Source: Novosphingopyxis baekryungensis DSM 16222 (GTDB taxonomy: Bacteria; Pseudomonadota; Alphaproteobacteria; Sphingomonadales; Sphingomonadaceae). From it: a stretch of DNA of 64,000 bases. Location of the stretch: NCBI RefSeq assembly GCF_000420305.1, contig NZ_ATUR01000004.1, positions 1 through 64,000 of the forward strand. Direction: 5' to 3'. The notes beneath the pieces were generated by a model. That model had not been told where the DNA came from. It saw nothing but the letters and a program-made list of their open reading frames with translations, and ran no database searches. Shown here one piece after another: positions 33,058 to 52,265 of the stretch. Both the position numbers and the translations under genes were made by a program. Position 1 is the stretch's first letter. The number at the start of each line of letters is the position of its first letter.

Positions 33058-33830
33058 GCGGCAATATCCTCTTTCGGAAGACGCTCGATCAATTCGCGCG
33101 CCAGATCGATATAGGCCATGCTACCGGCGCAGCGATGATCGTAAATCAACGCCGGCAGGCCATGGCTGGGCGCTTCCGACAGGCGCACATTGCGCGGGAT
33201 GACGGTATCGAACACGATCGGGCCGAGCACGGACCGCACATCGTCTGACACCTGCTCCGTCAGCCTGTTGCGCCGATCATACATGGTGAGCGCCACGCCC
33301 AATATGGACAGATCCGGATTGAACCGCGTGCGCACCAGCTCGACGGTCTGCAACAACTGGCTGAGCCCCTCCAGGGCAAAGAACTCGCATTGCAAAGGCA
33401 CCAATACGGAATGCGCAGCGACCAGGGCATTGACCGTCAACAGGCCTAGCGACGGCGGGCAATCGATCAGGCAGACATCATAGGTGGAAGCCGATGCGAT
33501 GGCGGTTTGCAGGGCGTTGGAACGGCGATCGCGATCGACCAGCTCGATTTCCGCGCCGGACAAGTCGACCGTCGCCGGCACGATGGACAATCCGGGCACG
33601 TCGGTTTTGACCGTGCACTCCGCCAGATCGGCTTCACCGATCAGCAATTCATAGCTGGTCCAGTCGCGCTGATCCCGTGCAACCCCCAGCCCGGTCGACG
33701 CATTGCCCTGCGGATCGAGATCGATCAACAATACTTTCGCGCCCGTCGCCGCCAGTGCGGTCGCGAGATTGATGGCGGTGGTGGTTTTTCCAACGCCGCC
33801 TTTTTGATTGGCTATTGCGATGCACCTCAT
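33054..33830 (-). CDS. parA: Chromosome partitioning ATPase ParA
   Basis: 258 residues. Deviant Walker A KGGVGKTTTAINLA with the signature lysine, 'VLLIDLDPQGNASTGLG' and 'YDVCLIDCPPSLGLLTVNAL'. The short form without an N-terminal DNA-binding domain is typical of chromosomal ParA (type Ib-like/Soj). It forms the DNA-bound gradient that moves ParB-parS complexes and so the origin. The ATG overlaps the rsmG stop. In Caulobacter relatives this gene is essential. Confidence 0.96.
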   Translation of the reverse strand: MRCIAIANQKGGVGKTTTAINLATALAATGAKVLLIDLDPQGNASTGLGVARDQRDWTSYELLIGEADLAECTVKTDVPGLSIVPATVDLSGAEIELVDRDRRSNALQTAIASASTYDVCLIDCPPSLGLLTVNALVAAHSVLVPLQCEFFALEGLSQLLQTVELVRTRFNPDLSILGVALTMYDRRNRLTEQVSDDVRSVLGPIVFDTVIPRNVRLSEAPSHGLPALIYDHRCAGSMAYIDLARELIERLPKEDIAA

Positions 33831-34447
33831 ACGGCGCCCCTCCCTACCAGAATGCCGGCGTCTGGATCGCTCAAGCTTTGTTCCACGTGGAACATGACCT
33901 TATGTTTTCGCGGCAGTTCGGCATAATGCATAGCAGCATTTTTTCCACGTGGAAGCACCCATGCTGTGTCTTCACAGGAAAACGGCCGCGCAAGATCGAG
34001 CAATTCAAGCACCGGCGCAAAAGCGCGTGCGACGATCGCGCCTGCGGGTCTTGGCGCGATCGTCTGCAAACGGCTGCATTCGACCGTCACTCTGGCGCTC
34101 AAGCCTAACGCGGTGATGGCTTCTTCCAGAAACGCACAGCGCCGTTTGCGCGATTCGACTAGGACAACATCATCCGACCGCAAGATTGCCAGCACAAGGC
34201 CAGGCAATCCCGGACCGCTGCCAAGATCCAGCATCGGCCCTTTCAATGTCTTTGGCAAATGGGGCGCGAGTTGGGCGCTATCGAAGATGTGGCGCTCCCA
34301 CAAATTTGCGACGGTCGACGCAGAAATGAGATTCTGCTGGCTGTTTTCCGCGACCAGCATGGAAGCAAATTGGTCGAGCTGTCCCAATGTTTCACGTGAA
34401 ACACCGAGCGTCGCGGACAGCCATTCACAAACGGCATCCTTGGTCAC
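33827..34447 (-). CDS. rsmG: 16S rRNA (guanine527-N7)-methyltransferase
   Basis: 206 residues from a GTG start that overlaps the mnmG stop (GTGA). Known also as GidB; it methylates G527 of 16S rRNA. Seen are '[27 protein letters not shown]', '[17 protein letters not shown]' (SAM site) and '[17 protein letters not shown]'. Two exact parS sequences fall inside its coding region (33879-33894, 34388-34403), encoding parts of 'MFHVEQ' and 'VSRETLG', so the protein sequence here is constrained twice. Confidence 0.95.
33879..33894. promoter_or_regulatory. parS site (exact)
   Basis: The 16-bp perfect palindrome TGTTCCACGTGGAACA matches the chromosomal ParB-binding consensus TGTTYCACGTGRAACA at all positions. 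It lies in the 3' part of rsmG, about 50 bp from parA. Confidence 0.88.
33941..33956. promoter_or_regulatory. Degenerate parS half-match
   Basis: The 12-bp core TTCCACGTGGAA is intact but three outer positions differ from consensus. It lies 62 bp from the exact site at 33879, inside rsmG, and may be a weak ParB site or a decaying copy. Confidence 0.4.
34388..34403. promoter_or_regulatory. parS site (exact)
   Basis: The 16-bp perfect palindrome TGTTTCACGTGAAACA is the canonical parS. It lies near the 5' end of rsmG, about 510 bp from the other exact site in that gene. Confidence 0.9.
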
Positions 34448-36314: not shown

Positions 36315-36330
36315 TGTTCCACGTGGAACA
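36315..36330. promoter_or_regulatory. parS site (exact), between mnmE and mnmG
   Basis: TGTTCCACGTGGAACA, identical to the site at 33879. It directly abuts the mnmE stop codon at 36331 and is the only exact site here outside a gene. Confidence 0.9.
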
Positions 36331-38705: not shown

Positions 38706-40310
38706 ATGACCAGGTTACGTTGGAAAGACGGCTGGCGATTGGTGCTGCCGGTCGCCATTCTGGCCATGCTGGTCGTCTGCCTCTTGGATCCGGGGCGCTA
38801 TTGGGTGCTCTGGATTCTCGTGCCCTTGACGCTTCTGGCGTTGTGGGACTTCTTCCAGCGGCCCCACACGCTGCTGCGCAACTTCCCGATCACCGGCCAT
38901 ATCCGCTGGATCATGGAGGCCCTGCGGCCCTATCTGCGCAGCTATATCGTGGAAAGCGATCTGGACGGACGGCCGTTCAGCATCGACGAGCGCGCGCTGG
39001 TCTATGCCCGCGCCAAGGGCGATCTGGACGATCACCCGATGGGCACCGAGCTGGACGTCTATTCCTCCGAATATGAATGGATGACCCATTCGATCGCGCC
39101 CAATGATTCCGCCGACAAGAATCCGCGCGTGCTGGTGGGCGGCCCGCAATGCAGCAAACCCTATCAGGCATCCGTGCTGAACATATCGGCCATGAGCTTC
39201 GGATCGCTCGGCTCGAACGCAATTGAGGCGCTCAATCTCGGCGCGAAGCTGGGCGGCTTCTATCATGACACCGGCGAAGGCGGTATCAGCCGCTATCACC
39301 GCAAGCATGGTGGCGATCTGACCTGGGAGATCGGCAGCGGCTATTTCGGCTGTCATGACGGTCAGGGCCATTTCGACGCCGAGATGTTTCGCGATAACGC
39401 GCAGCATGAGCAGGTGCGGATGATCGAGATCAAACTCAGCCAGGGTGCCAAACCGGGCCATGGCGGTGTTTTGCCCGGCGCCAAGGTGACCGAAGAGATT
39501 GCCGAAGCCCGCGGTGTGGAAGTTGGACAGGACTGCGTGTCCCCCGCCGGCCACAGTGCCTTTTCCAACCCCATCGAGATGCTGGAATGGTCCGCGCGGT
39601 TGCGCGACCTGTCCGGCGGCAAGCCGGTCGGTATCAAATTGTGCGTCGGCCAGCCGCACGAAGTCATGGCGATCATGAAAGCGATGCTGGAGACGGACAT
39701 CCTGCTCGATTACATCGTGGTGGATGGCGGCGAAGGCGGAACCGGCGCGGCGCCGGTCGAGCTGTCCAACCGCGTCGGCTATCCGCTTCGCGAGGGGCTG
39801 ATCATCGTGCGCAACGCGCTGGTCGGATCGGGCCTGAAAGATCGCATCAAGCTGGCCGCGTCCGGCAAGGTGCATAGCGGCGCGGGACTGGCCGCCAATG
39901 CAGCGCTCGGCGCGGACTGGTGCAATGCCGGCCGTGCCTTCATGTTCTCGCTTGGCTGTGTGCAGTCCATGCGGTGCCATACCGGCCTTTGCCCGACAGG
40001 CGTGGCGACCCAGAATCCGACCAGGCAACGCGGCCTCGTCGTCGAAGATAAAGCGGAGCGGGTGGCACGCTTCCACCAGCAGACCGTGAAGGCCCTGCAC
40101 ATGATCATGGTGTCCATGGGTCTGCAGCACCCGCGCGACATCCGGCCGGAACATTTCCATGAGCGCATTTCGGATATGCGCTCCCAGTCGATCGACAAGG
40201 TCTATGATTTTCTGAGCGAGGGAGAACTGCTCGGTGGCAGCGCCAGCGAATCCTATGCCGCGATGTGGAACGCGGCGCAGGCGAGCAGCTTCCGGTCGGT
40301 CGCAGCCTGA
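38706..40310 (+). CDS. FMN-binding glutamate-synthase-family protein, membrane anchored
   Basis: 534 residues. Two N-terminal membrane helices (about 11-45) precede a TIM-barrel FMN domain of glutamate synthase: 'ISAMSFGSLGSNAIEALNLGA', 'TGEGGISRYHRKHGGDL', 'SQGAKPGHGGVLPGAKVTEEIA', 'VVDGGEGGTGAAPVEL'. Cys418, Cys424 and Cys429 (CVQSMRCHTGLC) match the 3Fe-4S ligands of GltS. It has neither the amidotransferase nor the NADPH domain, so it is a stand-alone synthase-like oxidoreductase whose substrate is unknown. Such proteins are common in proteobacteria and archaea; some are linked to lipid or glutamate metabolism. Confidence 0.88.
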   Translation: MTRLRWKDGWRLVLPVAILAMLVVCLLDPGRYWVLWILVPLTLLALWDFFQRPHTLLRNFPITGHIRWIMEALRPYLRSYIVESDLDGRPFSIDERALVYARAKGDLDDHPMGTELDVYSSEYEWMTHSIAPNDSADKNPRVLVGGPQCSKPYQASVLNISAMSFGSLGSNAIEALNLGAKLGGFYHDTGEGGISRYHRKHGGDLTWEIGSGYFGCHDGQGHFDAEMFRDNAQHEQVRMIEIKLSQGAKPGHGGVLPGAKVTEEIAEARGVEVGQDCVSPAGHSAFSNPIEMLEWSARLRDLSGGKPVGIKLCVGQPHEVMAIMKAMLETDILLDYIVVDGGEGGTGAAPVELSNRVGYPLREGLIIVRNALVGSGLKDRIKLAASGKVHSGAGLAANAALGADWCNAGRAFMFSLGCVQSMRCHTGLCPTGVATQNPTRQRGLVVEDKAERVARFHQQTVKALHMIMVSMGLQHPRDIRPEHFHERISDMRSQSIDKVYDFLSEGELLGGSASESYAAMWNAAQASSFRSVAA

Positions 40311-40404
40311 TCAAAGCGCCTCACGCATTGTGCAGACCGGTCTGGAAACCATCGTCATCCAGAACAGGTCAGCTACCACTCTGCTTGAACGAGCAATCCG
40401 ACGG

Positions 40405-40431
40405 CGATCGTCCACAACCTAGGGACGATCG
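40405..40431. terminator. Hairpin between convergent genes
   Basis: CGATCGTCC (40405-40413) and GGACGATCG (40423-40431) are perfect arms across nine bases, in the 132-bp gap between two convergent genes. There is no T-run, so factor-independent termination would be weak; it may protect 3' ends. Confidence 0.5.
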
Positions 40432-40442
40432 TCGATTCCGGT

Positions 40443-41153
40443 TCAGCCGAACAGCGTCAGCAGGCCCGTTGTGTCCGCGCCGCCGACCAGACCCTCATAG
40501 ACCATCTTGCCGGCAACATAGAGGATGACGATCAGGCCCAGATAGCCGAGCCAGCGATGCCGTTCGATATATTTGGCGATGATGTTGGCCGCCACACCCA
40601 TCAGGATGACCGACAGGATCAGGCCAACCACTAGAATGCCGGGATGCTCGCGCGCTGCGCCGGCCACAGCCAATACATTGTCGAGGCTCATCGATACATC
40701 GGCCACGGCAACGGCCCAGGCGGCGGCGGCGAAACTCTTGACCGGTTTGACACCGACCTCGTCTCCGCTCGCGCTGCCGCCCTCCTGCAGTTCGCGATAG
40801 AATTTCCACGCAACCCAGATCAGCAACAGGCCGCCGGCGAACACCAGACCCACGATCCCCAGAAGCCAGGTGACGATGAGGGCGAAGAAAATGCGCAGGA
40901 CCAGCGCCGCACCGATGCCGATCAGGATGACCTTTTTACGGTCTTCCGCCGGCAAGCCCGCCGCCAGCGCACCGACGACGATGGCGTTATCGCCCGCCAG
41001 CAGCAGATCGATGGCCAGCACCTGACCGAACGCGGCCAGTTGCGACGGCTGCGTGATGTTCGAAAAATCGGCGATGATATGCTGCCAGATTTCCGACAGC
41101 GAGCCGATTCCGGCCGATGCACCCGCTTGGGCGAATAGGAGAAATTCGAACAT
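40443..41153 (-). CDS. TerC-family integral membrane protein (YjbE type)
   Basis: 236 residues with seven membrane helices. The family's acidic motifs are 'DLLLAGDNAIVVGAL' and 'VADVSMSLDNVLAVAG', which line a metal path. Characterised relatives export Mn2+ (MeeF/MeeY) or act in tellurite resistance, so Mn2+ efflux or metalation of secreted proteins is the best guess. The start ATG at 41153 is preceded by AGGAGC. A strong hairpin stands in its leader (41168-41191). It is not in an operon. Confidence 0.88.
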   Translation of the reverse strand: MFEFLLFAQAGASAGIGSLSEIWQHIIADFSNITQPSQLAAFGQVLAIDLLLAGDNAIVVGALAAGLPAEDRKKVILIGIGAALVLRIFFALIVTWLLGIVGLVFAGGLLLIWVAWKFYRELQEGGSASGDEVGVKPVKSFAAAAWAVAVADVSMSLDNVLAVAGAAREHPGILVVGLILSVILMGVAANIIAKYIERHRWLGYLGLIVILYVAGKMVYEGLVGGADTTGLLTLFG

Positions 41154-41167
41154 GGAAGCTCCTGGAA

Positions 41168-41191
41168 CGTGACGGGCCAGCCCGCATCACG
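41168..41191 (-). promoter_or_regulatory. Hairpin in the leader of the TerC-family gene
   Basis: On the gene strand CGTGA...TCACG and CGGG...CCCG pair to form a 9-bp stem with a TG bulge and a four-base loop, ending 14 bases before the start codon and close to AGGAG. TerC genes are often preceded by a Mn2+ (yybP-ykoY) riboswitch; the conserved loops of that class are not evident here. Confidence 0.4.
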
Positions 41192-41250
41192 GGCCAAAAT
41201 CGGCGAATCCGACCATGGCCCGCATCTTAATGGCGATCTGTAGCGGCTGC

Positions 41251-42507
<1,257 letters not shown>

Positions 42508-42712
42508 ATGGATTCCAAACCCGGCAGGACGCGGGACAATGTTGAAACTGGAAAATTCGGCGCGCGGCGCCAGGCTGGCGAGGCGCGCGAAACAAAGCCC
42601 GGACGGGCTGCATGGCAACGGATTTAGGCTCCGCCGCCGGGCCTGTCAATCGGGCCCGGTGAATCGGGCATCCGATCGGGCTGTTCCGCCGCCGCCATGT
42701 GGATGCATGGCC

Positions 42713-43153
42713 TCAGAAGGGTTTGACGATCACCAGGACGACGATGAGCGCAATCGCGATGGCCGGCACTTCGTTCAACAAACGCAGCGCCTTGCCGCTC
42801 AACGGCCGCTCGCCGCGTGCCAGCTTCTTGCCATAACCGATGAGATAGCCGTGATAGCCGGACAGGCCGATCACCAGCAGCAGCTTTGCGCCGAACCATC
42901 CCGTGCTCCAAGCACCGATGGTGAAGGCCAGCGTCAGCCCCAAGATCCAGACCAGGATCATCGACGGATTGAGGATGATCTTCAGCAGCTTGCGCTCCCG
43001 TTCGGCGAATTTCTCCGCCTCTTCGGAGCCGGACAGGGCCTCCTGGTGATAGACATACAGCCGGGGCAGCATGAACAGGCCAGCCATCCAGAAGATGACG
43101 AAAATCAGATGGGCGGCCTTCAGCCAGAGATACAGCACGGACAATGTTTCCAT
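42713..43153 (-). CDS. hemJ: Protoporphyrinogen oxidase HemJ
   Basis: 146 residues, four membrane helices. The UPF0093/CopD-like family has a conserved His and Arg: 'AAHLIFVIFWMAGLFMLPRLYVYH' and 'KLLLVIGLSGYHGYL'. It oxidises protoporphyrinogen IX in haem synthesis in organisms lacking HemG/HemY. It is 15 bp downstream of hemE on the same strand, so the two haem genes probably form an operon running towards rho. The family was long annotated as CopD. Confidence 0.92.
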   Translation of the reverse strand: METLSVLYLWLKAAHLIFVIFWMAGLFMLPRLYVYHQEALSGSEEAEKFAERERKLLKIILNPSMILVWILGLTLAFTIGAWSTGWFGAKLLLVIGLSGYHGYLIGYGKKLARGERPLSGKALRLLNEVPAIAIALIVVLVIVKPF

Positions 43154-43168
43154 TCGAATCTTGTAGAA

Positions 43169-44197
43169 TTATTTGCCGAGCAGCCCAAGCAATTTTCCGA
43201 CATGCGCGATCGGCGTGTCCTGCTGAATGCCATGACCCAGATTGAAGATATGCGGGCGATCGGCAAAGGCATGGCGGATGGTCGCCACCGCGGATTCCAG
43301 CGCCTCCCCGCCCGCGATCAGCAACAGGGGATCGAGATTACCCTGTACCGGCAGGCCTTTGGGCAGCACGTCATTTGCCCAGACGGGATCAACCGTTTCG
43401 TCCAGCCCGATGGCATCGACGCCGGTTGCCTCGGCATAGCGGGCCAGCTTGCCGCCGGCACCCTTGGGAAAACCGATGATCGGGGTATCCGGATGACGGT
43501 CCCGCACGCGTTCGACGATGGCGCGGTTGGGCGCGATCACCCAGCGTTCGAACTGCGCGGGGCTGAGCGATCCGGCCCAGCTGTCAAACAATTGCACCGC
43601 TTCGGCTCCCGCCGCGATCTGGCCGCTGAGATAATCCGCCGTCACCTCGATCAGCCGATCGATCAGTGCCTGAAAACGCGCTGGCTCGGCATAGGCCATG
43701 CGGCGCGTCAGGCTCTGGTCGCGGCTGCCCTCGCCTGCCACCATATAGGTCGATACGGTCCATGGACTGCCGGCAAAGCCCAGCATGGTGGTCTGCGGCG
43801 GCAAGGCGGCACGGACCTGGCGTACCGTCTCGTAGATCGGCTCGAAGCGGCTGAAATCGGGCGTCAGGGCGTCCAGCGCATGATCGGCCAGGATCGGGGT
43901 CAGGCGCGGCCCCTCGCCCGCCACGAAGCGCAGATCCTGCCCCAGCGCGTGCGGGATGATCAGGATGTCGGAAAACAGGATCGCACCGTCGAAGCCGAAC
44001 CGCCGGATCGGCTGCAGCGTCACCTCGGCGGCGGACGGGCTGTCATAGACCAGATCGAGGAAGCCGCCCTTTTCCGCCCGCAATGCCCGATATTCGGCAA
44101 GATAGCGGCCGGCCTGGCGCATCAGCCAGACGGGGGGCGGATCACGGCGTTCCCCGCGCAGCACGGCGAGCAATGGTTTATCGATTCTCGCAGTCAT
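43169..44197 (-). CDS. hemE: Uroporphyrinogen decarboxylase
   Basis: 342 residues. It removes four carboxyl groups from uroporphyrinogen III to give coproporphyrinogen III. N-terminal signature 'PPVWLMRQAGRYLAEYRALR', 'ILFSDILIIPHALGQDL', 'LGFAGSPWTVSTYM' and 'NLGHGIQQDTP' are present. Its ATG is 302 bp from the start of the divergent PPDK-regulatory gene, and the gap is the oriC candidate; hemE flanks the replication origin in Caulobacter and many alphaproteobacteria. Its promoter must lie within the AT-rich block at 44208-44240. Confidence 0.97.
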   Translation of the reverse strand: MTARIDKPLLAVLRGERRDPPPVWLMRQAGRYLAEYRALRAEKGGFLDLVYDSPSAAEVTLQPIRRFGFDGAILFSDILIIPHALGQDLRFVAGEGPRLTPILADHALDALTPDFSRFEPIYETVRQVRAALPPQTTMLGFAGSPWTVSTYMVAGEGSRDQSLTRRMAYAEPARFQALIDRLIEVTADYLSGQIAAGAEAVQLFDSWAGSLSPAQFERWVIAPNRAIVERVRDRHPDTPIIGFPKGAGGKLARYAEATGVDAIGLDETVDPVWANDVLPKGLPVQGNLDPLLLIAGGEALESAVATIRHAFADRPHIFNLGHGIQQDTPIAHVGKLLGLLGK

Positions 44198-44499
44198 GCC
44201 GGGCTTCCTAAATCCTTATATATTTAAAAGAGAGATAGATGATGGGAGATGGGCCGTGGATAAGCGGCGCTCTAGGTCCATCCACCATGTTTGCCAACAG
44301 ATTGACTCCATCGCGCCGGGGACTCCGGCAACGAGTCGCACCGGGCTACCCATGTTTTCAACAGCATGGGGATAACAAAGCCAGGCTGTGGACGAATGCT
44401 GGGCGACTCGCGTTGCACCATGCCGTTTGTCCGCAGCGCAGATCATCCCCAGCGCTATCCCTTGATTTATCCACGATTCGCCAACAAAGCTCAGCGGCC
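44198..44499. other. Candidate chromosomal replication origin (oriC)
   Basis: The gap between hemE and the PPDK regulator, syntenic with Caulobacter Cori. DnaA-box-like nonamers: TTATCCACG at 44255-44263 (minus) and 44467-44475 (plus), each one base from TTATCCACA; TTATCCCCA at 44367-44375 (minus, one mismatch); TCGTCCACA at 44387-44395 (minus, two mismatches). An AT-rich stretch at 44208-44240 (CCTTATATATTTAAAAGAG) could be the unwinding element. An inverted repeat CCCATG-N10-CATGGG spans 44349-44370. The upstream frame of the next gene continues through part of this region but its protein starts at 44500. Confidence 0.75.
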
Positions 44500-45339
44500 A
44501 TGGAACGCTTTCACCTTCATCTGCTCTCGGACTCGACCGGGGAAACGCTGGATAACATCGCCAAGGCTGCGCTGGTGCAGTTCGACGAGATCGACGTGGT
44601 GAAGCATTTCTGGCCGATGGTGCGCTCCGATGTGCATCTGGAACGCATTCTGGACGATGTGGCCGAAAATCCGGGGATGGTGCTGTTCACGCTGGTGAAT
44701 GTCGAGACGCGCCGCAAGCTGGAAAAGCGCTGCCGGGCGCTCGGTCTGCCCGCTATCCCGGCGCTGGATGCTGTGACCGATGCCTTGTCCGACATGCTGG
44801 GGCAGAAGGCCAAGGCGCGGCCCGGGCGGCAGCATAGTCTGGACGCCGCCTATTTCGCCCGCGTGGAGGCCATCCAATATACCATCGCCCATGATGATGG
44901 GGTGCATCAGGAAGGGTGGGAAGAGGCCGATATCATCTTGGCGGGCGTGTCGCGCACCTCCAAGACGCCGACCAGCATCTATCTGGCCAATCGCGGATAC
45001 AAGACCGCCAATATCCCGGTGGTGGTGGAATCGCCGCCGCCCGATACGCTCTATCATCTGCGCAACCCGCTGATCGTGGGTTTGACGACGAGCGCGGACC
45101 GGCTGGTGCAGATCCGCCGCAACCGCCTGCTGTCGCTGAACCAGATGCCGGAAACTGACTATGTGGAGGGGGATAAGGTGTCCGCCGAAGTGAAATTCGC
45201 CCGCCGCATCTTCGCCGATCGCGGCTGGCCGGTGATCGACGTGACGCGGCGCTCCATCGAGGAGACGGCGGCGGCGATCATCAATCTGGCGAATGACCGG
45301 GAGCTTTCCGGCCGCAAGCGCCAGGGCAATATCATTTGA
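44500..45339 (+). CDS. Pyruvate, phosphate dikinase regulatory protein (DUF299)
   Basis: 279 residues from the ATG at 44500, where the family sequence 'MERFHLHLLSDSTGETL' begins. It is a bifunctional ADP-dependent kinase/Pi-dependent phosphorylase acting on PPDK or PEP synthetase. The P-loop 'AGVSRTSKTPTSIYLANRGYKTANIPVV' is diagnostic. It is the RP001-type gene flanking oriC in alphaproteobacteria. Its TGA overlaps the maf start. Whether the target here is PPDK or PEP synthetase cannot be told from the window. Confidence 0.93.
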   Translation: MERFHLHLLSDSTGETLDNIAKAALVQFDEIDVVKHFWPMVRSDVHLERILDDVAENPGMVLFTLVNVETRRKLEKRCRALGLPAIPALDAVTDALSDMLGQKAKARPGRQHSLDAAYFARVEAIQYTIAHDDGVHQEGWEEADIILAGVSRTSKTPTSIYLANRGYKTANIPVVVESPPPDTLYHLRNPLIVGLTTSADRLVQIRRNRLLSLNQMPETDYVEGDKVSAEVKFARRIFADRGWPVIDVTRRSIEETAAAIINLANDRELSGRKRQGNII

Positions 45340-45932
45340 TCGCGCCGCTTGTCCTGGCGTCCGGCAGTGCGATCCGGCGAACCATACTGGAAGCGGCGGG
45401 GGTCGCGTTCCACGTGAAACCGGCACGGGTCGATGAAGATGCGTTGAAGGACGCGCTGTCCGATCTGAAATTGCGCGATCTGGCCGATGCCCTGGCCGAG
45501 GCAAAGGCGCTGCGTGGATCGCAGGCGACGCCGGATCAGCTGGTGCTGGGCGCCGATTCCATGCTGGAGCTGGCGGACGGCACGCGGCTGGACAAACCCG
45601 AGAATCCGGAGGCGGCGCGCGCGCAGCTGTCCGCCATGTCGGGCGGCACCCATAAGCTGCATGCCGCCGCCGTGATTGCCGAAAACGGTGCGGCGGTCTG
45701 GCGGCATGTCGATACCGCGCGGTTGCACGTCCGCACCCTGTCGGACGATTTCATTGCCGCTTATGTGGAGGCGGAATGGGATTCGATCCGCCACACCAGC
45801 GGCTGCTTCGAATATGAAGGCCGGGGGGCGCAGCTGTTTTCGCGCGTCGACGGCAGCCATTTCACCATTCTCGGCCTGCCGCTGCTGCCGCTGCTGGCCT
45901 TTTTACGCGCCCGAAAGATGATGCCGTCATGA
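45336..45932 (+). CDS. Maf-like nucleotide pyrophosphatase
   Basis: 198 residues from a TTG start overlapping the preceding TGA. Hydrolyses dTTP/UTP or modified nucleotides to monophosphates. 'LASGSAIRRTILEAAG' corresponds to the canonical LASxSPRR; 'LVLGADSMLEL', 'LDKPENPEAARAQLSAMSGGTH' and 'GCFEYEGRGAQLFSRVDGSHFTILGLPL' follow the family. A near-exact parS lies at its 5' end (45406-45421). It starts an overlapping series with aroE and coaE. Confidence 0.92.
   Translation: MIAPLVLASGSAIRRTILEAAGVAFHVKPARVDEDALKDALSDLKLRDLADALAEAKALRGSQATPDQLVLGADSMLELADGTRLDKPENPEAARAQLSAMSGGTHKLHAAAVIAENGAAVWRHVDTARLHVRTLSDDFIAAYVEAEWDSIRHTSGCFEYEGRGAQLFSRVDGSHFTILGLPLLPLLAFLRARKMMPS
45406..45421. promoter_or_regulatory. 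parS-like site inside maf, 1 kb from oriC
   Basis: The core GTTCCACGTGAAAC matches GTTYCACGTGRAAC exactly; only the terminal base on each side of the 16-mer differs. It is the closest ParB-type site to the oriC candidate and the only one to its right. Confidence 0.6.
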
Positions 45933-46753
45933 AACAGATAACCGGCCAGCCCTATGCCGAGGTGATCGGCAATCCGGTGAAGCACAGCAAATCGCCGCTG
46001 ATCCATCGTTTTTGGCTCAACCGTCTCGGGATCGATGCCGATTATCGCATCGCCGAGATATCTGCGGACGGGCTGGCGGACTATTTTGCCGAGCGGCGCG
46101 AAGATCCGGACTGGATGGGGTGCAACATCACCATTCCGCACAAGATCGCCGCGCTGGATCATGTGGCCGACCCAGGCGGCGTGCGAGACACGATCGGCGC
46201 GATCAATACCGTGTTTCGCGGCGAGGACGGCCTGCTGACCGGCACCAATACCGATGCCGCCGGCTTCTGGGCACCGATTGCGGAGCGCAACTGGTCCGGG
46301 CGCCATGCCATCGTCATCGGATCGGGCGGCGCGGCGCGGGCGGTTCTTTTCGCGCTGGCCAGAGGCGGCATCGGCGAGGTGACGATGGTGGCGCGCAACC
46401 CGTTGAAGGCCATGGGTCTTTTGGCGCATTTCGGTCTGAAAGGCGGCGTGCAGGCGATGGATGTCAAGCTGCCGGCGGCCCATCTGCTGATCAACGCCAG
46501 CCCCCTGGGGATGAGCGGACAGGAGCCCCTGGCGCTCGATCTGGAACCGCTCAAACGCGGCGCCTTGGTCTATGATCTGGTCTACAAGCCGGTGGAAACT
46601 GCGCTGCTGCGCCAGGCCGAGGACCGCGAACTGGAGGTAGTGGATGGCCTTTCCATGCTGGTGGCGCAGGCCGCCTTTGCCTTTGAGCTGTTCTTCGGGG
46701 AAGCGGCGCCGGAGGAAGGCCAGGAGGCGCTGTTCGAGAAGCTGACGGCATGA
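45929..46753 (+). CDS. aroE: Shikimate 5-dehydrogenase
   Basis: 274 residues. NADPH-dependent reduction of 3-dehydroshikimate in aromatic amino-acid synthesis. Substrate site 'VIGNPVKHSKSPLIHRFWL' and catalytic Lys in 'CNITIPHKIAAL'; dinucleotide loop 'VIGSGGAARAVLFAL'; C-terminal 'DGLSMLVAQAAFAFELF'. Its ATG overlaps the maf stop and its stop overlaps coaE, indicating one transcript from the origin rightwards. Confidence 0.96.
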   Translation: MKQITGQPYAEVIGNPVKHSKSPLIHRFWLNRLGIDADYRIAEISADGLADYFAERREDPDWMGCNITIPHKIAALDHVADPGGVRDTIGAINTVFRGEDGLLTGTNTDAAGFWAPIAERNWSGRHAIVIGSGGAARAVLFALARGGIGEVTMVARNPLKAMGLLAHFGLKGGVQAMDVKLPAAHLLINASPLGMSGQEPLALDLEPLKRGALVYDLVYKPVETALLRQAEDRELEVVDGLSMLVAQAAFAFELFFGEAAPEEGQEALFEKLTA

Positions 46754-47382
46754 GCCATCCGCCCGATCAGAGCACACGGCCCGCCATCATTGGTCTGACC
46801 GGATCGATCGGCATGGGCAAATCCACCGTTGCCGCGATGTTTGCCGAACTTGGCGTGCCGATATTCGATGCCGATGCCGTGGTGCGGCACTTGCAGGGTC
46901 CAGGCGGCGCGCTGCTGCCCATGATCGAAGACGCCTTTCCCGGCACCACGGGGCCGGATGGCGTGGACCGCGGCGCCTTGGGGGAGATGGTCTTCGGAAA
47001 GCCGGACGAACTGGCCCGGCTGGAAGCCATCGTGCACCCCGCCGTTGCCAATCGCCGCCTGGGCTTTCTCGATTCCCATGCCGATGCGCCCCTGATCCTG
47101 TTCGATATCCCCCTGTTGTTCGAAAAGGGCGGCGCGGACGGCGTCGATCATATCGTGGTCGTCAGCGCGCCTGCTAGCCAGCAGCGCGAACGCGTGCTCG
47201 CCAGGCCCGGCATGACCGAGCAGAAATTTGCCGATATTATGAAACTGCAACTGCCCGATGCCGACAAGCGCGCGCGGGCGCATCATGTGATCGATACCGG
47301 CACCACGCTGGAGGAGACGCGCCGGCAGGTGAAAGCGCTGATCGCGCGCCTTGGCGGCAGCCGGGATCAATCCCGGCCTTGA
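46750..47382 (+). CDS. coaE: Dephospho-CoA kinase
   Basis: 210 residues. Last step of coenzyme A synthesis. P-loop 'GLTGSIGMGKSTVAAMFAELGVPIFDADAVV', 'HPAVANRR', 'LILFDIPLLFEKG' and 'VVVSAPASQQRERVLARPGMTEQKF'. ATG overlaps the aroE stop. The maf-aroE-coaE-dnaQ order next to oriC is conserved widely in alphaproteobacteria. Confidence 0.96.
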   Translation: MSHPPDQSTRPAIIGLTGSIGMGKSTVAAMFAELGVPIFDADAVVRHLQGPGGALLPMIEDAFPGTTGPDGVDRGALGEMVFGKPDELARLEAIVHPAVANRRLGFLDSHADAPLILFDIPLLFEKGGADGVDHIVVVSAPASQQRERVLARPGMTEQKFADIMKLQLPDADKRARAHHVIDTGTTLEETRRQVKALIARLGGSRDQSRP

Positions 47383-47413
47383 ATGACATGGCCCACAGGT
47401 GAATAGACCACCC

Positions 47414-48118
47414 ATGCGAGAGATTATCTTCGATACCGAGACGACGGGCGTGGACCCGGACAATGGCGACCGGATGGTCGAAATCGGATGCATCGAGATG
47501 ATCGACCGGGTGATGACCGGTGCCACCTATCATTGCTATTATAATCCCGAACGTCCGATGGATCCGGGGGCCGAGCGCGTCCACGGGCTGGGCGATGCGT
47601 TTTTGCGGGACAAGCCGCGCTTTGCCGAGAAAACCGAAGAGCTGCTGGAGTTTCTGGGCGATGCCGCGCTGGTGGCGCATAATGCCAAATTCGATTTCGG
47701 CTTTCTCAACATGGAGCTGGATCGCTGCGGACTGGCTCCGGTGGACTATGCCCGCATGGTCGACACGGTGGCGATTGCACGGCGCAAGCATCCCGGTGCC
47801 AAGGCATCGCTCGATGCGCTGTGCACGCGCTACGGGATCGATCGCAGTCACCGGGTAAAACATGGCGCGCTGCTGGATGCCGAATTGCTGGCCCAGCTCT
47901 ATATCGAGCTGACCGGCGGGCGGCAGATCGGCCTCGGTCTGGGCAGTCAGTCCGGCGACGCGGGACAGGCGGTGCAGACGCCCACCAGCCTGTTGCCGAC
48001 CGGTCCGGCCCGCGCGCCGCGCCACCATGCACCGAATGACGAGGAATTGGCGCGTCATGCACAGCTTGTCGCTGATATTCCGGGGGCGCTTTGGAGCAGC
48101 GGCCGTGCGCGTCGCTGA
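47414..48118 (+). CDS. dnaQ: DNA polymerase III epsilon subunit (proofreading exonuclease)
   Basis: 234 residues from the ATG at 47414; a GTG at 47399 is open but less likely. DEDDh 3'-5' exonuclease: ExoI 'IIFDTETTGVDPDNGDRMVEIG', ExoII 'LVAHNAKFDFGFLNMEL', ExoIII 'HRVKHGALLDAELLAQLYIEL'. It binds the polymerase and theta-like partners to correct errors during replication. The C-terminal tail past residue 185 (polymerase-binding) is poorly conserved, as usual. Next to the origin, as in Caulobacter. Confidence 0.95.
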   Translation: MREIIFDTETTGVDPDNGDRMVEIGCIEMIDRVMTGATYHCYYNPERPMDPGAERVHGLGDAFLRDKPRFAEKTEELLEFLGDAALVAHNAKFDFGFLNMELDRCGLAPVDYARMVDTVAIARRKHPGAKASLDALCTRYGIDRSHRVKHGALLDAELLAQLYIELTGGRQIGLGLGSQSGDAGQAVQTPTSLLPTGPARAPRHHAPNDEELARHAQLVADIPGALWSSGRARR

Positions 48119-48128
48119 CGGTTTGTAC

Positions 48129-48154
48129 TGAACCGTTTCGGTCCTTCGACCGTT
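48129..48154 (+). promoter_or_regulatory. Candidate EcfG-type promoter of hpf
   Basis: TGAACC (48129-48134), 16 bp, CGTT (48151-48154) approximates the alphaproteobacterial general-stress promoter GGAAC-N16-17-CGTT with one mismatch (T for the first G). The sequence ACCGTTTC also recurs 17 bp apart at 48132 and 48149. It leaves about 20 bp of leader containing AAGAAGGAG. Confidence 0.4.
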
Positions 48155-48182
48155 TCAGAACATTAAGAAGGAGAAAAATCCC

Positions 48183-48752
48183 ATGCAGATTCAGGTTTCC
48201 GGTCATCAGGTGGACACAGGCGAAGCGCTGCGCGCGCATGTCGAGGATCGCATGACTGCGGTTGCGGACAAATATTTCCCTGACACGATTTCTGGCCAGG
48301 CGACGTTCGGCCGCGGCCCGCATGACAGTTTCACCTGCGACATCGTGACCCATGTGATGCAGGGTCTCTGGCTAAAGGCCGATGCCAATGCGCAGGATGC
48401 GCACAAGGCGTTCGACGGCGCGCTCGGCAAGATCGAGAAGCAGCTGCGCCGCTATATGCGCCGGATCAAGGATCGCCATAGCCAGGCGGCCCATGCGCTG
48501 AAGGAAGAGGAAGCCGCCTATACGGTGTTCGATTCCGAGGAAGAATCGCATGAGGCCAGCGATTCGCCACCGATCGTCGCGGAACTGCGCGCAAACATCC
48601 CCGAAGTGTCGGTTTCCGATGCGGTTATGGTGTTGAACATGCGCAGCACGCCAGCACTCCTGTTTAAAAACTCTGGAACCGGCCGCCATAATATGGTTTA
48701 CCGCCGCGACGATGGCACGATCGGATGGGTGGAACCGCAAACCGCGTCCTGA
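48183..48752 (+). CDS. hpf: Ribosome hibernation promoting factor, long form
   Basis: 189 residues. The N-terminal half (about 1-100; 'MQIQVSGHQVDTGEALRAHVEDRM', 'VTHVMQGLWLKADANAQDAHKAFDGAL') binds the 30S subunit. The C-terminal domain (about 125-189; 'VVMVLNMRSTPALLF' region, 'NMVYRRDDGTIGWVEP') dimerises ribosomes into 100S particles. It has strong AAGAAGGAG before the ATG. ptsN follows, the arrangement normally found beside rpoN, but rpoN is not here. The possible EcfG promoter would tie it to stress or starvation. Confidence 0.94.
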   Translation: MQIQVSGHQVDTGEALRAHVEDRMTAVADKYFPDTISGQATFGRGPHDSFTCDIVTHVMQGLWLKADANAQDAHKAFDGALGKIEKQLRRYMRRIKDRHSQAAHALKEEEAAYTVFDSEEESHEASDSPPIVAELRANIPEVSVSDAVMVLNMRSTPALLFKNSGTGRHNMVYRRDDGTIGWVEPQTAS

Positions 48753-48844
48753 CAGCTGCCAATCCCCGGAGATGTTGGGACAATTCGGGTCACAACACAC
48801 AGGCTTTACTGGAAGCGCCGCTTTTGGGCGTGAGTTCTTTTACT

Positions 48845-49315
48845 ATGTTGATCGACTATAGCTGTGGGTTGCATGAAAAGGCGGTGGTGGCCGATGCCGC
48901 CATCTCCGGCAAGGCGGCTTTGTTTGCACTGATGGGGGCCCGTGCCGAGGCGAGCTACGGCGTGGATGCCGATGCCGTCACCGCGGCCCTTCAGCAGCGC
49001 GAAAATCTCGGTTCGACCGGTTTTGGCAATGGCATCGCCATTCCGCATGCCCGGCTGGCGCAGATCACCGATCCCGTCGGTCTGTTCGTGCGGCTGGAAA
49101 AGCCGGTCGAATATGCCAGTATCGATGAACGGCCGGTCGATCTGGTGTTCGGCCTCCTGTCGCCTGTCGCGGACGGCGCACGACATCTCAAGGTGCTGGC
49201 CGGAATTTCACGGACTTTGCGGGATGAGGGCAATCTAGCCCGGCTTCGCGGCGCGTCGAACGCCGATGCCATTTATGCCTTGCTGGCTGGACGTTATGAG
49301 TTCGACGCCGCCTGA
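48845..49315 (+). CDS. ptsN: PTS IIA-like nitrogen regulatory protein PtsN
   Basis: 156 residues from the ATG at 48845; the family N-terminus is not sharply marked, and a GTG at 48830 is an alternative. EIIA domain with phospho-His in 'GNGIAIPHARL', preceded by 'VTAALQQRENLGSTGFG' and followed by 'VFGLLSPVADGARHLKVLAGISRTL'. It is the terminal acceptor of the nitrogen PTS and acts in regulation, not sugar transport. It is placed after hpf. The thioesterase gene overlaps its last 20 bases. Confidence 0.92.
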   Translation: MLIDYSCGLHEKAVVADAAISGKAALFALMGARAEASYGVDADAVTAALQQRENLGSTGFGNGIAIPHARLAQITDPVGLFVRLEKPVEYASIDERPVDLVFGLLSPVADGARHLKVLAGISRTLRDEGNLARLRGASNADAIYALLAGRYEFDAA

Positions 49316-49769
49316 GGCCTCCAGCGGGCAGGACGCGCATTTTCGCGCGTTGGAGTCGCTGTATCGGACTGCGCCGATCAACCATCTGTTCGATTCCGAG
49401 ATCGAGATCATGGGTCCGGGCAAATGCGATATCTGGTTCAACGTCGATGAACGCCATTTGCACGCCGCCGGGGCCGTGCACGGATCGGCCTATTTCAAGA
49501 TGCTGGACGATGCCGCCTTTTACGCGGTGAACAGCCTGGTGACCGATCGGTTCGTGCTGACGACCGCGTTCAATCTGCTGTTCACCCGCCCGATCCAGCC
49601 GGGCCGCCTGCGTGCGACGGGCCGCTGGATCAGCGGCCGCAAGCGCATCTATGTGGGGGAAGCCCGCCTGATCGATGCCGATGGGGAAGAGGCCGGACGC
49701 GGCACCGGCACATTCATGCGCTCGCGCATCCCGCTGGCCGGCCTGCCCGGCTATAGCAACGGGGCATGA
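49296..49769 (+). CDS. PaaI-like thioesterase (hotdog fold)
   Basis: 157 residues from the ATG at 49296, inside the ptsN 3' end. The hotdog domain has 'HAAGAVHGSAYFKMLDDAAFYAVNS' (helix and catalytic Asp region) and 'LTTAFNLLFTRPIQPGRLRATGRW'. Such proteins hydrolyse acyl-CoA thioesters, including phenylacetyl-CoA derivatives. No pathway context is visible, so substrate is open. It forms a compact series with ptsN and the following DUF1491 gene, which overlaps its stop. Confidence 0.86.
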   Translation: MSSTPPEASSGQDAHFRALESLYRTAPINHLFDSEIEIMGPGKCDIWFNVDERHLHAAGAVHGSAYFKMLDDAAFYAVNSLVTDRFVLTTAFNLLFTRPIQPGRLRATGRWISGRKRIYVGEARLIDADGEEAGRGTGTFMRSRIPLAGLPGYSNGA

Positions 49770-50110
49770 TCGCTCCACGGCTGGCCGCGCATATGCATAT
49801 CGGCGCGATTCGGCGCCTGTGCGAACGCGAGGGAGGCTTTGCCACCATTCTTGCCAAGGGTGATCAGACCGCCGGTGACATCGTGATCATCCTGCGCGGA
49901 AGAGACCAGCAATTGCGGCTGATACGCAGGGCGGCCAGCTGGGACGGCCCACCCAGCTGGTCGAACCTGGATACGCAACATATTGAAAATGAACAGGAAC
50001 TGGAATCCGCGACCGCAAAAATGCGTGCGGTGGACCAGGATCTATGGCTGATTGAACTGGACGTCCCGCAGGCGGAACGGTTCATCGCGCTACTGCGCGA
50101 CTTGGTTTGA
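49766..50110 (+). CDS. DUF1491 protein
   Basis: 114 residues. Begins MIAPRLAAHMHIGAIRRLCE and matches the DUF1491 layout of alphaproteobacteria: 'GGFATILAKGDQTAGDIVIILR', 'WDGPPSW', and C-terminal 'DQDLWLIELDVPQAERFI'. No catalytic motif or membrane segment is visible. Its ATG overlaps the thioesterase stop. Function unknown. On the opposite strand just downstream a consensus EcfG-like promoter (50145-50170) points into its 3' end. Confidence 0.85.
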   Translation: MIAPRLAAHMHIGAIRRLCEREGGFATILAKGDQTAGDIVIILRGRDQQLRLIRRAASWDGPPSWSNLDTQHIENEQELESATAKMRAVDQDLWLIELDVPQAERFIALLRDLV

Positions 50111-50144
50111 CTCCTGCCGGAGCATGAGTAAATGCGACGCCAGA

Positions 50145-50170
50145 AACGAGCGCAAGTGGTCAACGGTTCC
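50145..50170 (-). promoter_or_regulatory. Antisense EcfG-consensus promoter-like sequence
   Basis: On the minus strand GGAAC (plus 50170-50166), exactly 17 bp, and CGTT (50148-50145) match the general-stress consensus. No gene starts downstream on that strand; transcription would run antisense to the DUF1491 gene. About one or two such matches are expected by chance in 64 kb, so it may be meaningless. Confidence 0.3.
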
Positions 50171-50286
50171 GTCCAGGGGGGCGAAAATCGACAAACACGC
50201 GAGTCGGAAGATGATCCCCAGCAGAATGGGTTGTAATTTTTAGGTTTCTGCTGCGCGGGTGTCTGCCGCACGAATATGTGAAATTG

Positions 50287-51015
50287 ATGTTCAATTATCT
50301 GAAGGCTGCGGGTGCCGCGGCTGTTTCCATGTTGCTGGTATCCGCCGTCGTCGTGACCGATACCAGTGTTGCCGTTGCTGCCGAAGAGCAGCAGCAGACC
50401 ACACTCATCGCCGGCGAGATCAATGTCGATCCCGGTGTTCTTGCCGAGCTTCAGGCCGATCAGGCCGTGGCCGATGCGCAGGAAGGTGCAGACGATGCCC
50501 AAGGGCCGAGCACCGACAACATTACATTCTATAGCGAAGCCGTGATTGCACCGGTGCCGGAACGCAGCCAGCCCGAGGTCGCAGCAATCCCCGATACGCA
50601 GGCCAGCAGCCTGTCGCAGCTCGTATCCATGCAGCGCGCCGATGCCGCGCTCGATGCCGAAGAGCGCTGCCTTGCCGGCACCATCTATTTCGAATCCAAG
50701 GGCGAATCTCTGGAGGGCCAGCTGGCCGTAGCCAAGGTTGTCCTGAACCGCGCCGCCTCGTCCCGCTGGCCGAACTCGATCTGTGGCGTGGTGTATCAGA
50801 AGAGCCAATTCAGCTTCGTGCGCGGCGGCAAGATGCCCCATATCCGCAAGGCAAGCGCCTCGTGGAAGCGCGCCAAGGCCATCGCCCGCATTGCGCTGGA
50901 CGGTGCCTGGCAGAGCGAAGTGGATGATGCGCTGTTCTTCCACGCCAAATATGTCTCGCCCGGTTGGCGGCTCACCCGCGTCGGCGCGGTGGACAAGCAT
51001 ATCTTCTACCGCTGA
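50287..51015 (+). CDS. SleB-type cell wall hydrolase
   Basis: 242 residues from the ATG at 50287; a GTG at 50278 is equally open. A signal peptide ('AAGAAAVSMLLVSAVVVTDTSVAVAA') precedes a low-complexity Ala/Asp/Gln linker. Residues about 130-242 are the Hydrolase_2/SleB domain: 'ERCLAGTIYFESKGESLEGQLAVAKVVLNR', 'SICGVVYQKSQFSFV', 'DDALFFHAKYVSPGW', with the catalytic Glu in YFESKGE. It cleaves peptidoglycan in the periplasm. A strong terminator follows. Preceding gap has no visible promoter apart from the AT-rich 50223-50245. Confidence 0.9.
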   Translation: MFNYLKAAGAAAVSMLLVSAVVVTDTSVAVAAEEQQQTTLIAGEINVDPGVLAELQADQAVADAQEGADDAQGPSTDNITFYSEAVIAPVPERSQPEVAAIPDTQASSLSQLVSMQRADAALDAEERCLAGTIYFESKGESLEGQLAVAKVVLNRAASSRWPNSICGVVYQKSQFSFVRGGKMPHIRKASASWKRAKAIARIALDGAWQSEVDDALFFHAKYVSPGWRLTRVGAVDKHIFYR

Positions 51016-51036
51016 GCGGTGATGACGATCTGATCT

Positions 51037-51063
51037 AAAGGCCCCGCTCAGGGGCCTTTATTA
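51037..51063. terminator. Intrinsic terminator after the cell wall hydrolase gene
   Basis: A perfect 9-bp stem AAAGGCCCC/GGGGCCTTT with loop GCTCA, followed by TTTATTAT. It stands 22 bp past the hydrolase stop and 30 bp before mmcB. Confidence 0.85.
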
Positions 51064-51091
51064 TGTTCCCCTCCTGTTCTATGGCAGGTCC

Positions 51092-51580
51092 ATGTTGGAC
51101 ATGGCCCCTCGAATCGATCTCACCGGCGCAGCTGCGGTAACGCGCGGACTGCGGCGCATGTTTGCCCGCCATCAGTTGTTCCTTCTGCCGGAAGTCCCGT
51201 TGCGCAATGGCCGCCGGGCCGATGGCATGGGGCTGGACGCCAAGGGGCAGGTGGTGATCGTGGAGATCAAATGCTCGCGTGCCGATCTTCTGGGGGACCA
51301 GAAATGGCGCGACTATCTGGATTTTTGCGACCGTTTTTACTGGGCCGTTCCGCCGGAAATGGATGAGGCGCTGCTGGCGCGGGAGGGGTTCGAGCCGGAG
51401 CGCACGGGCCTGATCGTGGCCGATGCCTATGATGCGGCCATCGTGCGGCAGGCCGTCAGCGTGCCGCTGGCTGCGGCGCGGCGCAAGAAGGAAACCGAAC
51501 GCCTGGCACGCATCGCCATGCGTCGGCACACGCAGATGCAGGATCCGGAAATAGCCTGGGGCGTGGAACCGAGCGACTGA
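51092..51580 (+). CDS. mmcB: MmcB-family DNA repair protein
   Basis: 162 residues. DUF1052/MmcB: 'LPEVPLRNGRRADGMGLDAKGQVVIVEIKCSRADLLGDQKW', 'DFCDRFYWAVPP', with a PD-(D/E)xK-like nuclease pattern (Asp in RADGMG, Glu-Ile-Lys in EIKCS). In Caulobacter it is induced by mitomycin C and contributes to damage tolerance. The ATG at 51092 is used; 51101 is possible. It is monocistronic between a terminator and the oppositely oriented ankyrin gene. Confidence 0.9.
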   Translation: MLDMAPRIDLTGAAAVTRGLRRMFARHQLFLLPEVPLRNGRRADGMGLDAKGQVVIVEIKCSRADLLGDQKWRDYLDFCDRFYWAVPPEMDEALLAREGFEPERTGLIVADAYDAAIVRQAVSVPLAAARRKKETERLARIAMRRHTQMQDPEIAWGVEPSD

Positions 51581-51584
51581 TGTT

Positions 51585-51608
51585 GGCGATGGCGATGGCG
51601 ATGGCGAT
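51585..51608. repeat. Hexanucleotide tandem repeat (GGCGAT)4
   Basis: Four perfect copies just after the mmcB stop, in the 55-bp gap to the ankyrin gene. It is outside coding sequence in any accepted gene. Confidence 0.8.
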
Positions 51609-51635
51609 CCGCCCCGTCATGCCGGTGGCCGCGCT

Positions 51636-52265
51636 TTATTTGATGCCGGAAAAGTCCAGCTCGCCATTGGCCTTGGTGGAAGGGGCATCGGGCTTGGCTT
51701 CCAGCAGATCGAGAATGGTGCGCGCCCGGTTGTCTAGGCGCGCATAATCGCGAGCGGACCGTCCGCTCACATTATCCGTGATATCCGCATCCGCGCCATG
51801 TTTCAGCAGCATGCGCACCGTCTCGGAATCGCGCAACTGCACCGCGCGGATCAGCGGCGTTTCGCCGGCGCGGTTGGTCTGGTTCACCTTGGCCCCATAG
51901 GTCAGCAGGGTTTCCATCCCGTCCAGATAGCCAAGCTGCGTGGCCAGCATCAGCGGCGTGTTGCCGTCATCATCGCCGATATTGGGGTTGGCGTTCTTTG
52001 CCAGCAGAAATCTGATCCAGGCGGAATCGCGCCGTTCCACCACCATGTGCATGGCGGTGCGTCCGTCGTCGCGTTGCCGCGCATTGACCACATTGGTGCC
52101 CGGCACCTGCAGGAGCGACGTGACCTTCTCGCCATCGCGTTTCTTGACCGCTTCCAGAAAGCTGTAGCTTGGCGACACCTGACTTTGCGCCTGGGCGGCA
52201 TGATAGGGCACCGCCAGACCGGTGAAACTGGATGCGAGGAGGACGGCGATCATGATAGGGCGCAT
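51636..52265 (-). CDS. Exported ankyrin-repeat protein
   Basis: 209 residues. A signal peptide ('MIAVLLASSFTGLAVPYHAAQAQ') is followed by about four ankyrin repeats: 'GRTAMHMVVERRDSAWIRFLLAKNANPNI', 'GNTPLMLATQLGYLDGMETLLTYGAKVN', 'GETPLIRAVQLRDSETVRMLLKHGADADI' and 'GRSARDYARLDNRARTILDLL'. Ankyrin repeats bind proteins; export suggests periplasmic scaffolding, for instance protecting catalase or other partners. The partner is not indicated by neighbours. Confidence 0.9.
   Translation of the reverse strand: MRPIMIAVLLASSFTGLAVPYHAAQAQSQVSPSYSFLEAVKKRDGEKVTSLLQVPGTNVVNARQRDDGRTAMHMVVERRDSAWIRFLLAKNANPNIGDDDGNTPLMLATQLGYLDGMETLLTYGAKVNQTNRAGETPLIRAVQLRDSETVRMLLKHGADADITDNVSGRSARDYARLDNRARTILDLLEAKPDAPSTKANGELDFSGIK

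Follow-up and report, generated by a model that had tools for sequence, protein, structure and literature searches.

Does the 302-bp gap between hemE and the PPDK-regulator gene of Novosphingopyxis baekryungensis contain the chromosomal origin of replication, as an earlier note on this DNA had claimed, and what could be the use of the five GANTC sites, the methylation sites of CcrM, that lie in it? The note had recognised the origin features of the gap and overlooked the GANTC array. Both questions were approached in the window, that is, the whole stretch of 64 kb analysed, and by comparison with the rest of the draft genome, with a sister species whose genome is complete (G001; 3,191,507 bp) and with the equivalent gaps of relatives.

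A predicted origin between hemE and the PPDK-regulator gene

The gap is bounded by the starts of two divergent genes. hemE, encoding uroporphyrinogen decarboxylase (TIGR01464, PF01208), lies on the minus strand at 43169-44197 with its start at 44197, and the gene of the PPDK/PEP-synthase regulatory kinase-pyrophosphorylase (DUF299/COG1806; PF03618, NF003742) lies on the plus strand at 44500-45339 with its start at 44500. This leaves exactly the 302 bp, from 44198 to 44499, that had been announced. The identities previously given to the flanking genes were confirmed; further genes, including a UPF0093 and a TerC gene, are scattered between them. Family models on both genes thus place the gap between the same flanks, hemE and COG1806/DUF299, as the Caulobacter crescentus origin Cori; the equivalence with Cori had been asserted beforehand and agrees with the passages of PMC1914354, in which the Rickettsia origin also occupies a hemE / COG1806 gap and Cori likewise contains DnaA boxes and an AT-rich block.

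Equivalent gaps were cut out of 135 of 138 short loci from relatives, L007, L034 and L111 having no usable hemE start. Twelve came from other families of the order and L067 (964 bp) was dropped for its length, leaving 122 family gaps. These are not independent because some genomes occur twice (L030 and L135 have identical sites). A thinned set of 101 gaps, with 8-mer overlap under 0.35 and length under 420, was used for counts at aligned columns.

DnaA boxes were searched with the consensus TTATCCACA and a main cut-off of one mismatch. Three of the six boxes detected in the 64-kb window fall in the gap: TTATCCACG at 44255-44263 on the minus strand, TTATCCCCA at 44367-44375 on the minus strand and TTATCCACG again at 44467-44475 on the plus strand, in columns where 21, 22 and 21 of the 101 thinned gaps, respectively, carry a box. 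Four further boxes, at 44355, 44387, 44427 and 44443, have two mismatches. Among them, the degenerate TTTTCAACA (44355-44363, plus strand), to which the box at 44367 is the inverted neighbour, and the weak TCGTCCACA (44387-44395, minus strand) stand in columns where 52/101 and 28/101 relatives have a box within one mismatch. The neighbouring column at 44478 carries a box in 51 of the thinned gaps and none in N. baekryungensis. The four DnaA-box-like nonamers counted earlier were therefore a matter of cut-off, since there are three at one mismatch and four more at two; the sites named at 44255 and 44467 stand.

The occurrence of several boxes in one gap, a trait of Cori-type origins, is beyond chance. 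In 395 kb sampled from the genome itself, 30 boxes were detected, or 0.023 per 302 bp, and none of 15,560 overlapping 302-bp windows (25-bp steps) contained at least two; in G001, 46 boxes were found in 640 kb, the stretch over its gap being left out, and again no window held two. Matches of 191 shuffled 9-mers in the 122 family gaps averaged 6.5 and never exceeded 91, whereas 284 DnaA boxes were counted there. At least one box is present in 114 of them, and 8 have none within one mismatch. The two divergent genes need promoters in the gap, and one could regard it as a mere promoter region with chance DnaA-like boxes, the origin lying elsewhere; a clustering of boxes unmatched in the sampled 395 kb and recurring across the family argues against this reading, as does the position of Cori in the equivalent gap (PMC1914354, in the passages concerned). 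The perfect consensus TTATCCACA was ruled out as an origin marker, having 10 copies in the genome and none in the gap. The GAT-rich stretch that separates the AT-rich block from 44255 was considered as a DnaA-trio and dropped, its polarity seeming wrong by eye.

Adjoining hemE, the block at 44208-44243 is a candidate duplex-unwinding element. The 33 bp from 44211 reach 79% AT, the maximum for 33-bp windows across the 64 kb, which bears out the AT-rich block described earlier at 44208-44240; with wider windows the block is tied third (50 bp) and tied fifth (100 bp). Inverted repeats are also present, as had been noted, in the form of three pairs with arms of 8-10 nt. One pair is formed by the two outer DnaA boxes and another, 44332-44339 / 44403-44410, by two GANTC sites. 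For the latter, both sites occur in 54 of 101 gaps and the match of the arms across relatives is equalled or surpassed by 174 of 2000 shuffles. The arms are thus not clearly better matched than shuffles, so that the inverted repeat as such is little supported, and we rejected the pair as one binding unit. Two one-mismatch IHF sites were found in the gap by scoring against an E. coli-type consensus, an exact site occurring in 2 of the 122 family gaps.

CtrA limits origin firing in Caulobacter. No perfect CtrA site (TTAA-N7-TTAA) was detected in the 122 family gaps, and CtrA sites were rejected for the gap since one-mismatch TTAA pairs were no commoner with the N7 spacer (14) than with the control spacers N5 (16), N6 (19) and N8 (14). 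Cori differs in this respect, with five TTAA-N7-TTAA sites, and also has an IHF site (PMC1914354, as the passages have it). The missing sites do not exclude a Cori-type origin, because some other predicted alphaproteobacterial origins described in the same passages also lack them. In Sphingomonas melonis, growth was unharmed by the loss of CtrA, as the passage of PMC8116508 reads.

Segregation genes and GC skew around the gap

As around Cori, parAB and parS are nearby. parB (32152-33057, minus strand) is recognised by TIGR00180 over its cut-off, and parA (33054-33830, minus strand) encodes a ParA-family ATPase for which the models shown score below their curated cut-offs. The sole perfect parS of the genome, TGTTTCACGTGAAACA, is located at 34388-34403. 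It is flanked by two identical parS-like palindromes with two mismatches, TGTTCCACGTGGAACA, at 33879-33894 and 36315-36330. These three are all the matches of the genome allowing up to two mismatches; they are comprised between 33.9 and 36.3 kb, about 8-10 kb from the gap.

Inside the window, the cumulative GC skew has its minimum at about 42-44 kb. The skew is -0.008 over 1-44.2 kb and +0.022 over 44.5-64 kb or, nearer to the gap, -0.018 over 24.0-44.2 kb and +0.044 over 44.5-57 kb. The earlier note had expected the skew of the whole chromosome to change sign here, and we checked this by sampling 33 stretches of 20 kb from G001. The skew was negative in 15 of 17 stretches to the left of the gap and positive in 14 of 15 to the right, with a value of -0.013 for the stretch over the gap and a second sign change about 1.5-1.6 Mb away. 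The nearest stretch to the left (-58 kb) has the wrong sign (+0.011), which limits the location of the change to an interval from about -154 to +37 kb. A change of skew near the gap was accordingly recovered in the sister chromosome, at a resolution of about 190 kb, whereas the own contig C4 is irregular beyond about 90 kb.

In the draft genome, which consists of 10 contigs, C2 is positive in 7/7 stretches and C3 negative in 5/5. C4, by contrast, has a value of +0.004 at 70-90 kb, and its 7 stretches between 110 and 365 kb are all negative. This second change to the right would favour an origin elsewhere. However, collinearity with G001 extends to about 90 kb on C4, and the DNA found there at 150 and 350 kb corresponds, in equal orientation, to positions of G001 that lie 204 and 298 kb left of the gap of that genome, that is, on the other replichore, which points to a rearrangement or a mis-join and not to a second origin. 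The C4 segment from about 90 to 150 kb looks like a translocation or a mis-joined contig, which need not move the origin. The reversal beyond 90-110 kb remains a blemish on the origin case, explained only by the two matches to G001.

With the sampled skew of G001 changing near the gap and the sole parS matches of the genome close by, we consider it very improbable that the gap is a promoter region and nothing else. The origin call at 44198-44499 is supported by the DnaA boxes, the AT-rich element, parAB/parS and the local and sister-chromosome skew, and we conclude with high confidence that this gap is the predicted oriC of a Sphingomonadaceae chromosome. The biochemistry of initiation and segregation can be sketched by homology with Caulobacter Cori: DnaA would load on the boxes of the gap and melt the AT-rich block beside hemE, and the duplicated origins would then be segregated by ParB-parS, 8-10 kb leftward.

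Such a placement is ordinary and expected, because an oriC near hemE has already been published for Sphingopyxis granuli TFA and most Sphingomonadaceae of DoriC (passages of PMC4741004). These origins, predicted with DoriC/Ori-Finder, resemble the present one in family, hemE neighbourhood, conservation of DnaA boxes and presence of a putative unwinding element. The call anchors the draft chromosome of N. baekryungensis and fits a known syntenic rule.

The GANTC array in the gap and in relatives

The five GANTC sites of the gap compare with 0.36 expected from the genome itself. They are located at 44304-44308, 44321-44325, 44333-44337, 44405-44409 and 44475-44479, the last overlapping the final base of the DnaA box at 44467, and one further site lies just inside hemE and another just inside the PPDK-regulator gene. 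The site at 44333 is the most conserved, occupying the same column in 78 of the 101 thinned gaps and a 14-column band in 80; in this band the middle base is G or T in 85 of 87 sites. The column of the 44304 site holds a GANTC in 29/101 gaps, and the band around the 44405 site (columns 391-432) contains any GANTC in 68/101. GANTC is mentioned nowhere in the passages of the oriC account of PMC4741004; the array is described here.

In the genome as sampled, GANTC is depleted to 0.35 of expectation, and none of the 15,560 windows of 302 bp from the sampled 395 kb has at least five. One simple explanation is that the array has no role, sites accumulating wherever the selection that depletes them in coding DNA is absent; GANTC is indeed under-represented genome-wide and higher between genes, according to passages of PMC3973325. 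Other intergenic DNA was examined as pieces of at least 200 bp from crude ORF-based calling in two genomes of the genus. The GANTC density is 1.39 per kb for the 56 pieces of the own genome, none of which has more than 4 sites, and 1.62 per kb for the 80 pieces of G001, none of which has more than 3, to be compared with 16.6 per kb in the N. baekryungensis gap and 13.35 per kb in the family gaps. Intergenic DNA thus has about a ninth of the density of the gaps (an 8-10-fold difference), which speaks against mere accumulation.

The excess also extends beyond the gap. The zone from 40001 to 52000 holds 40 sites, 5 in the gap and 35 outside, against a mean of 14.4 and a maximum of 27 in 155 overlapping 12-kb windows sampled from the genome, its bounds having been picked after the profile was seen. 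GTNAC, CTNAG and CANTG are not raised in this zone. That sites are enriched outside the gap as well again argues against a roleless accumulation. Only one other place in the window has 5 GANTC in 302 bp, namely 41106-41295, where rho ends and a TerC-family gene lies downstream.

Across the 122 family gaps, 516 GANTC were counted where 145.9 are expected by composition (3.5-fold), and 100 Markov simulations gave a mean of 157 (sd 12.6) and a maximum of 185. Sites relieved of depletion should be at random expectation and not above it. All 122 gaps have at least one GANTC, with up to 12 per gap, and GANTC ranks first of the 16 XYNY'X' palindromes. AGNCT is also raised (1.85, vs 0.56 for the own-genome background; GANTC 3.54 vs 0.35). 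In 500-bp bins over the named relatives, the gap bin has 6.37 GANTC per kb; coding DNA located 500-1000 bp inside the PPDK regulator gives 4.44 per kb, and the other ten bins give 1.3-3.0.

Outside the family, the 12 gaps from other families of the order contain 25 GANTC vs 16.5 expected, in 9 gaps and with 13 from a single one; the genomes of the 3 gaps lacking GANTC nevertheless carry the CcrM RAMA domain. For other orders, 115 genomes were searched and 68 matched, from which the best 28 new loci yielded 26 gaps; among these best loci, GANTC is present in 22 of 26 gaps, with 76 sites in total, 1.74 times the expectation, and ranks first of the 16 palindromes. The trait is broad and strongest in Sphingomonadaceae among the families sampled. 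A strong rise of GANTC around the origin is reported for four alphaproteobacterial orders, including 17 genomes of Sphingomonadales, in passages of PMC9836097, where sites were counted along the chromosome and normalised to 1000 bp, and several GANTC motifs in Caulobacter origins are mentioned in passages of PMC3973325. The array described here is a sharper view of this coarsely known trend: it is resolved to the 302-bp gap and, beyond those passages of PMC9836097, includes conserved columns, controls with intergenic DNA and other palindromes, and genomes devoid of the neighbouring gene.

Genomes of this last kind were identified among 199 family genomes, 12 of which gave no match to the PPDK regulator. 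hemE was searched in 10 of these 12 and was present in 7, from three genera (G089, G156, G208, G121, G181, G037 and G008; L221-L228), with no match in the other 3; G008 is 86% complete. The 330 bp beside hemE contain 3-9 GANTC in each of the 7 genomes (39 in 2,310 bp) and the next 1.14-1.16 kb only 0-5. The array therefore stays beside hemE independently of the PPDK-regulator gene. DnaA boxes within one mismatch number 10-12 in the 700-bp hemE flank of three genomes, all of one genus, 1-2 in three others and none in the last.

Several side observations were made on these loci. The 10-12 boxes in 700 bases of one genus (g37; L224, L225 and L226) compare with a range of 0-5 per gap across the 122 of the family. 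Inspection by eye showed a Maf-like frame after the hemE flank in L221-L223 and L227. In G008 (L227/L228), hemE matches in two overlapping pieces, possibly due to a frameshift or a sequencing error.

Possible roles of the array

A ccrM gene is predicted in the genome, with N6_N4_Mtase and RAMA domains. Its score with the CcrM model, 605.8 bits, is under the cut-off of 830 of this Caulobacter model. Methylation sites are thus clustered at the predicted origin of a genome with a matching orphan methyltransferase gene, itself predicted from sequence, as in the Dam/SeqA system. The E. coli oriC also combines clustered adenine-methylation sites with DnaA boxes and an AT-rich element, but it uses GATC and Dam where the N. 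baekryungensis gap has GANTC and CcrM instead. A survey of RAMA in 43 genomes gave 2 without a match and 1 below the cut-off, too few for the absence of CcrM to be used as a natural control. Among the genomes of the class, G243 (L191) has 6 GANTC in its gap yet no RAMA match.

The sites could alternatively serve CcrM/GcrA-dependent transcription of hemE, of the PPDK regulator or of a CcnA-like small RNA, and not origin control. In passages of PMC3973325, CcrM and GcrA act mainly on transcription in Caulobacter; hemE transcription matters for Cori and a non-coding RNA, CcnA, adjoins it, according to published passages. The sites may have a role at the hemE promoter. The version involving the PPDK regulator is contradicted by the 7 genomes in which the array persists and that gene is not detected, and the up to 12 sites per family gap contrast with the at most 4 in other intergenic pieces sampled.

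GcrA-type sites were rejected as the reason for the array. Both YGAKTCG, which we take to be a form of the GcrA-type motif, and YGAKTCK are rarer in gaps than in genome samples. For YGAKTCK, the motif taken from a published passage, the counts are 105 of 516 gap sites vs 142 of 469 in own-genome samples and 239 of 722 in G001, which weighs against the GcrA version of the transcriptional explanation. Taken together, we hold a transcriptional purpose to be somewhat unlikely.

The sites might also be a by-product of other conserved binding sites, the second form of a roleless array. Conserved columns and the oriented central base of one band are what a larger binding site would give, and despite the densities reported above we regard the absence of any role of its own as a serious possibility, although we would still wager against it.

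If the array does have a role at the origin, its likeliest use, which we put forward tentatively, is perhaps to mark whether the origin has been replicated. Firing would leave the GANTC sites hemimethylated until CcrM acts late in the cell cycle, and the hemimethylated array would distinguish the replicated from the not-replicated state at an origin without recognisable CtrA sites. That CcrM enforces firing once per cycle in Sphingomonadaceae, the hemimethylated array blocking re-initiation until CcrM acts, through a putative reader or altered DnaA binding, appears to us more doubtful. We know neither of a protein that reads hemimethylated GANTC at an origin nor of a SeqA-like reader here.

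Experiments in other genera bear on such a block. In passages of PMC3973325, initiation control is normal in Caulobacter without CcrM, which weighs against a CcrM role, and CcrM over-expression leads to extra chromosomes, which favours one. The GANTC-free gaps of RAMA-carrying genomes in other families, the gap of G243, the raised AGNCT and the rich coding bin inside the PPDK regulator also count against such a role. In Agrobacterium tumefaciens, as related in passages of PMC11514494, GANTC sites lie in the origin module of the repABC origin ori2, for which hemimethylation has been proposed to limit re-initiation, and CcrM depletion delayed ori2 with no obvious effect on ori1; ori2 is a RepC-dependent secondary origin, unlike the DnaA-dependent oriC. 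No published proposal of CcrM control at a Sphingomonadaceae oriC was found in the open-licence literature searched, part of it consulted as passages.

If true, a block of re-initiation through CcrM and GANTC would be an independently evolved functional counterpart of Dam/SeqA. The array bears on a possible direct action of CcrM methylation at the origin, and it offers a concrete, mutable target for asking how a second firing is prevented at alphaproteobacterial origins that lack CtrA sites.
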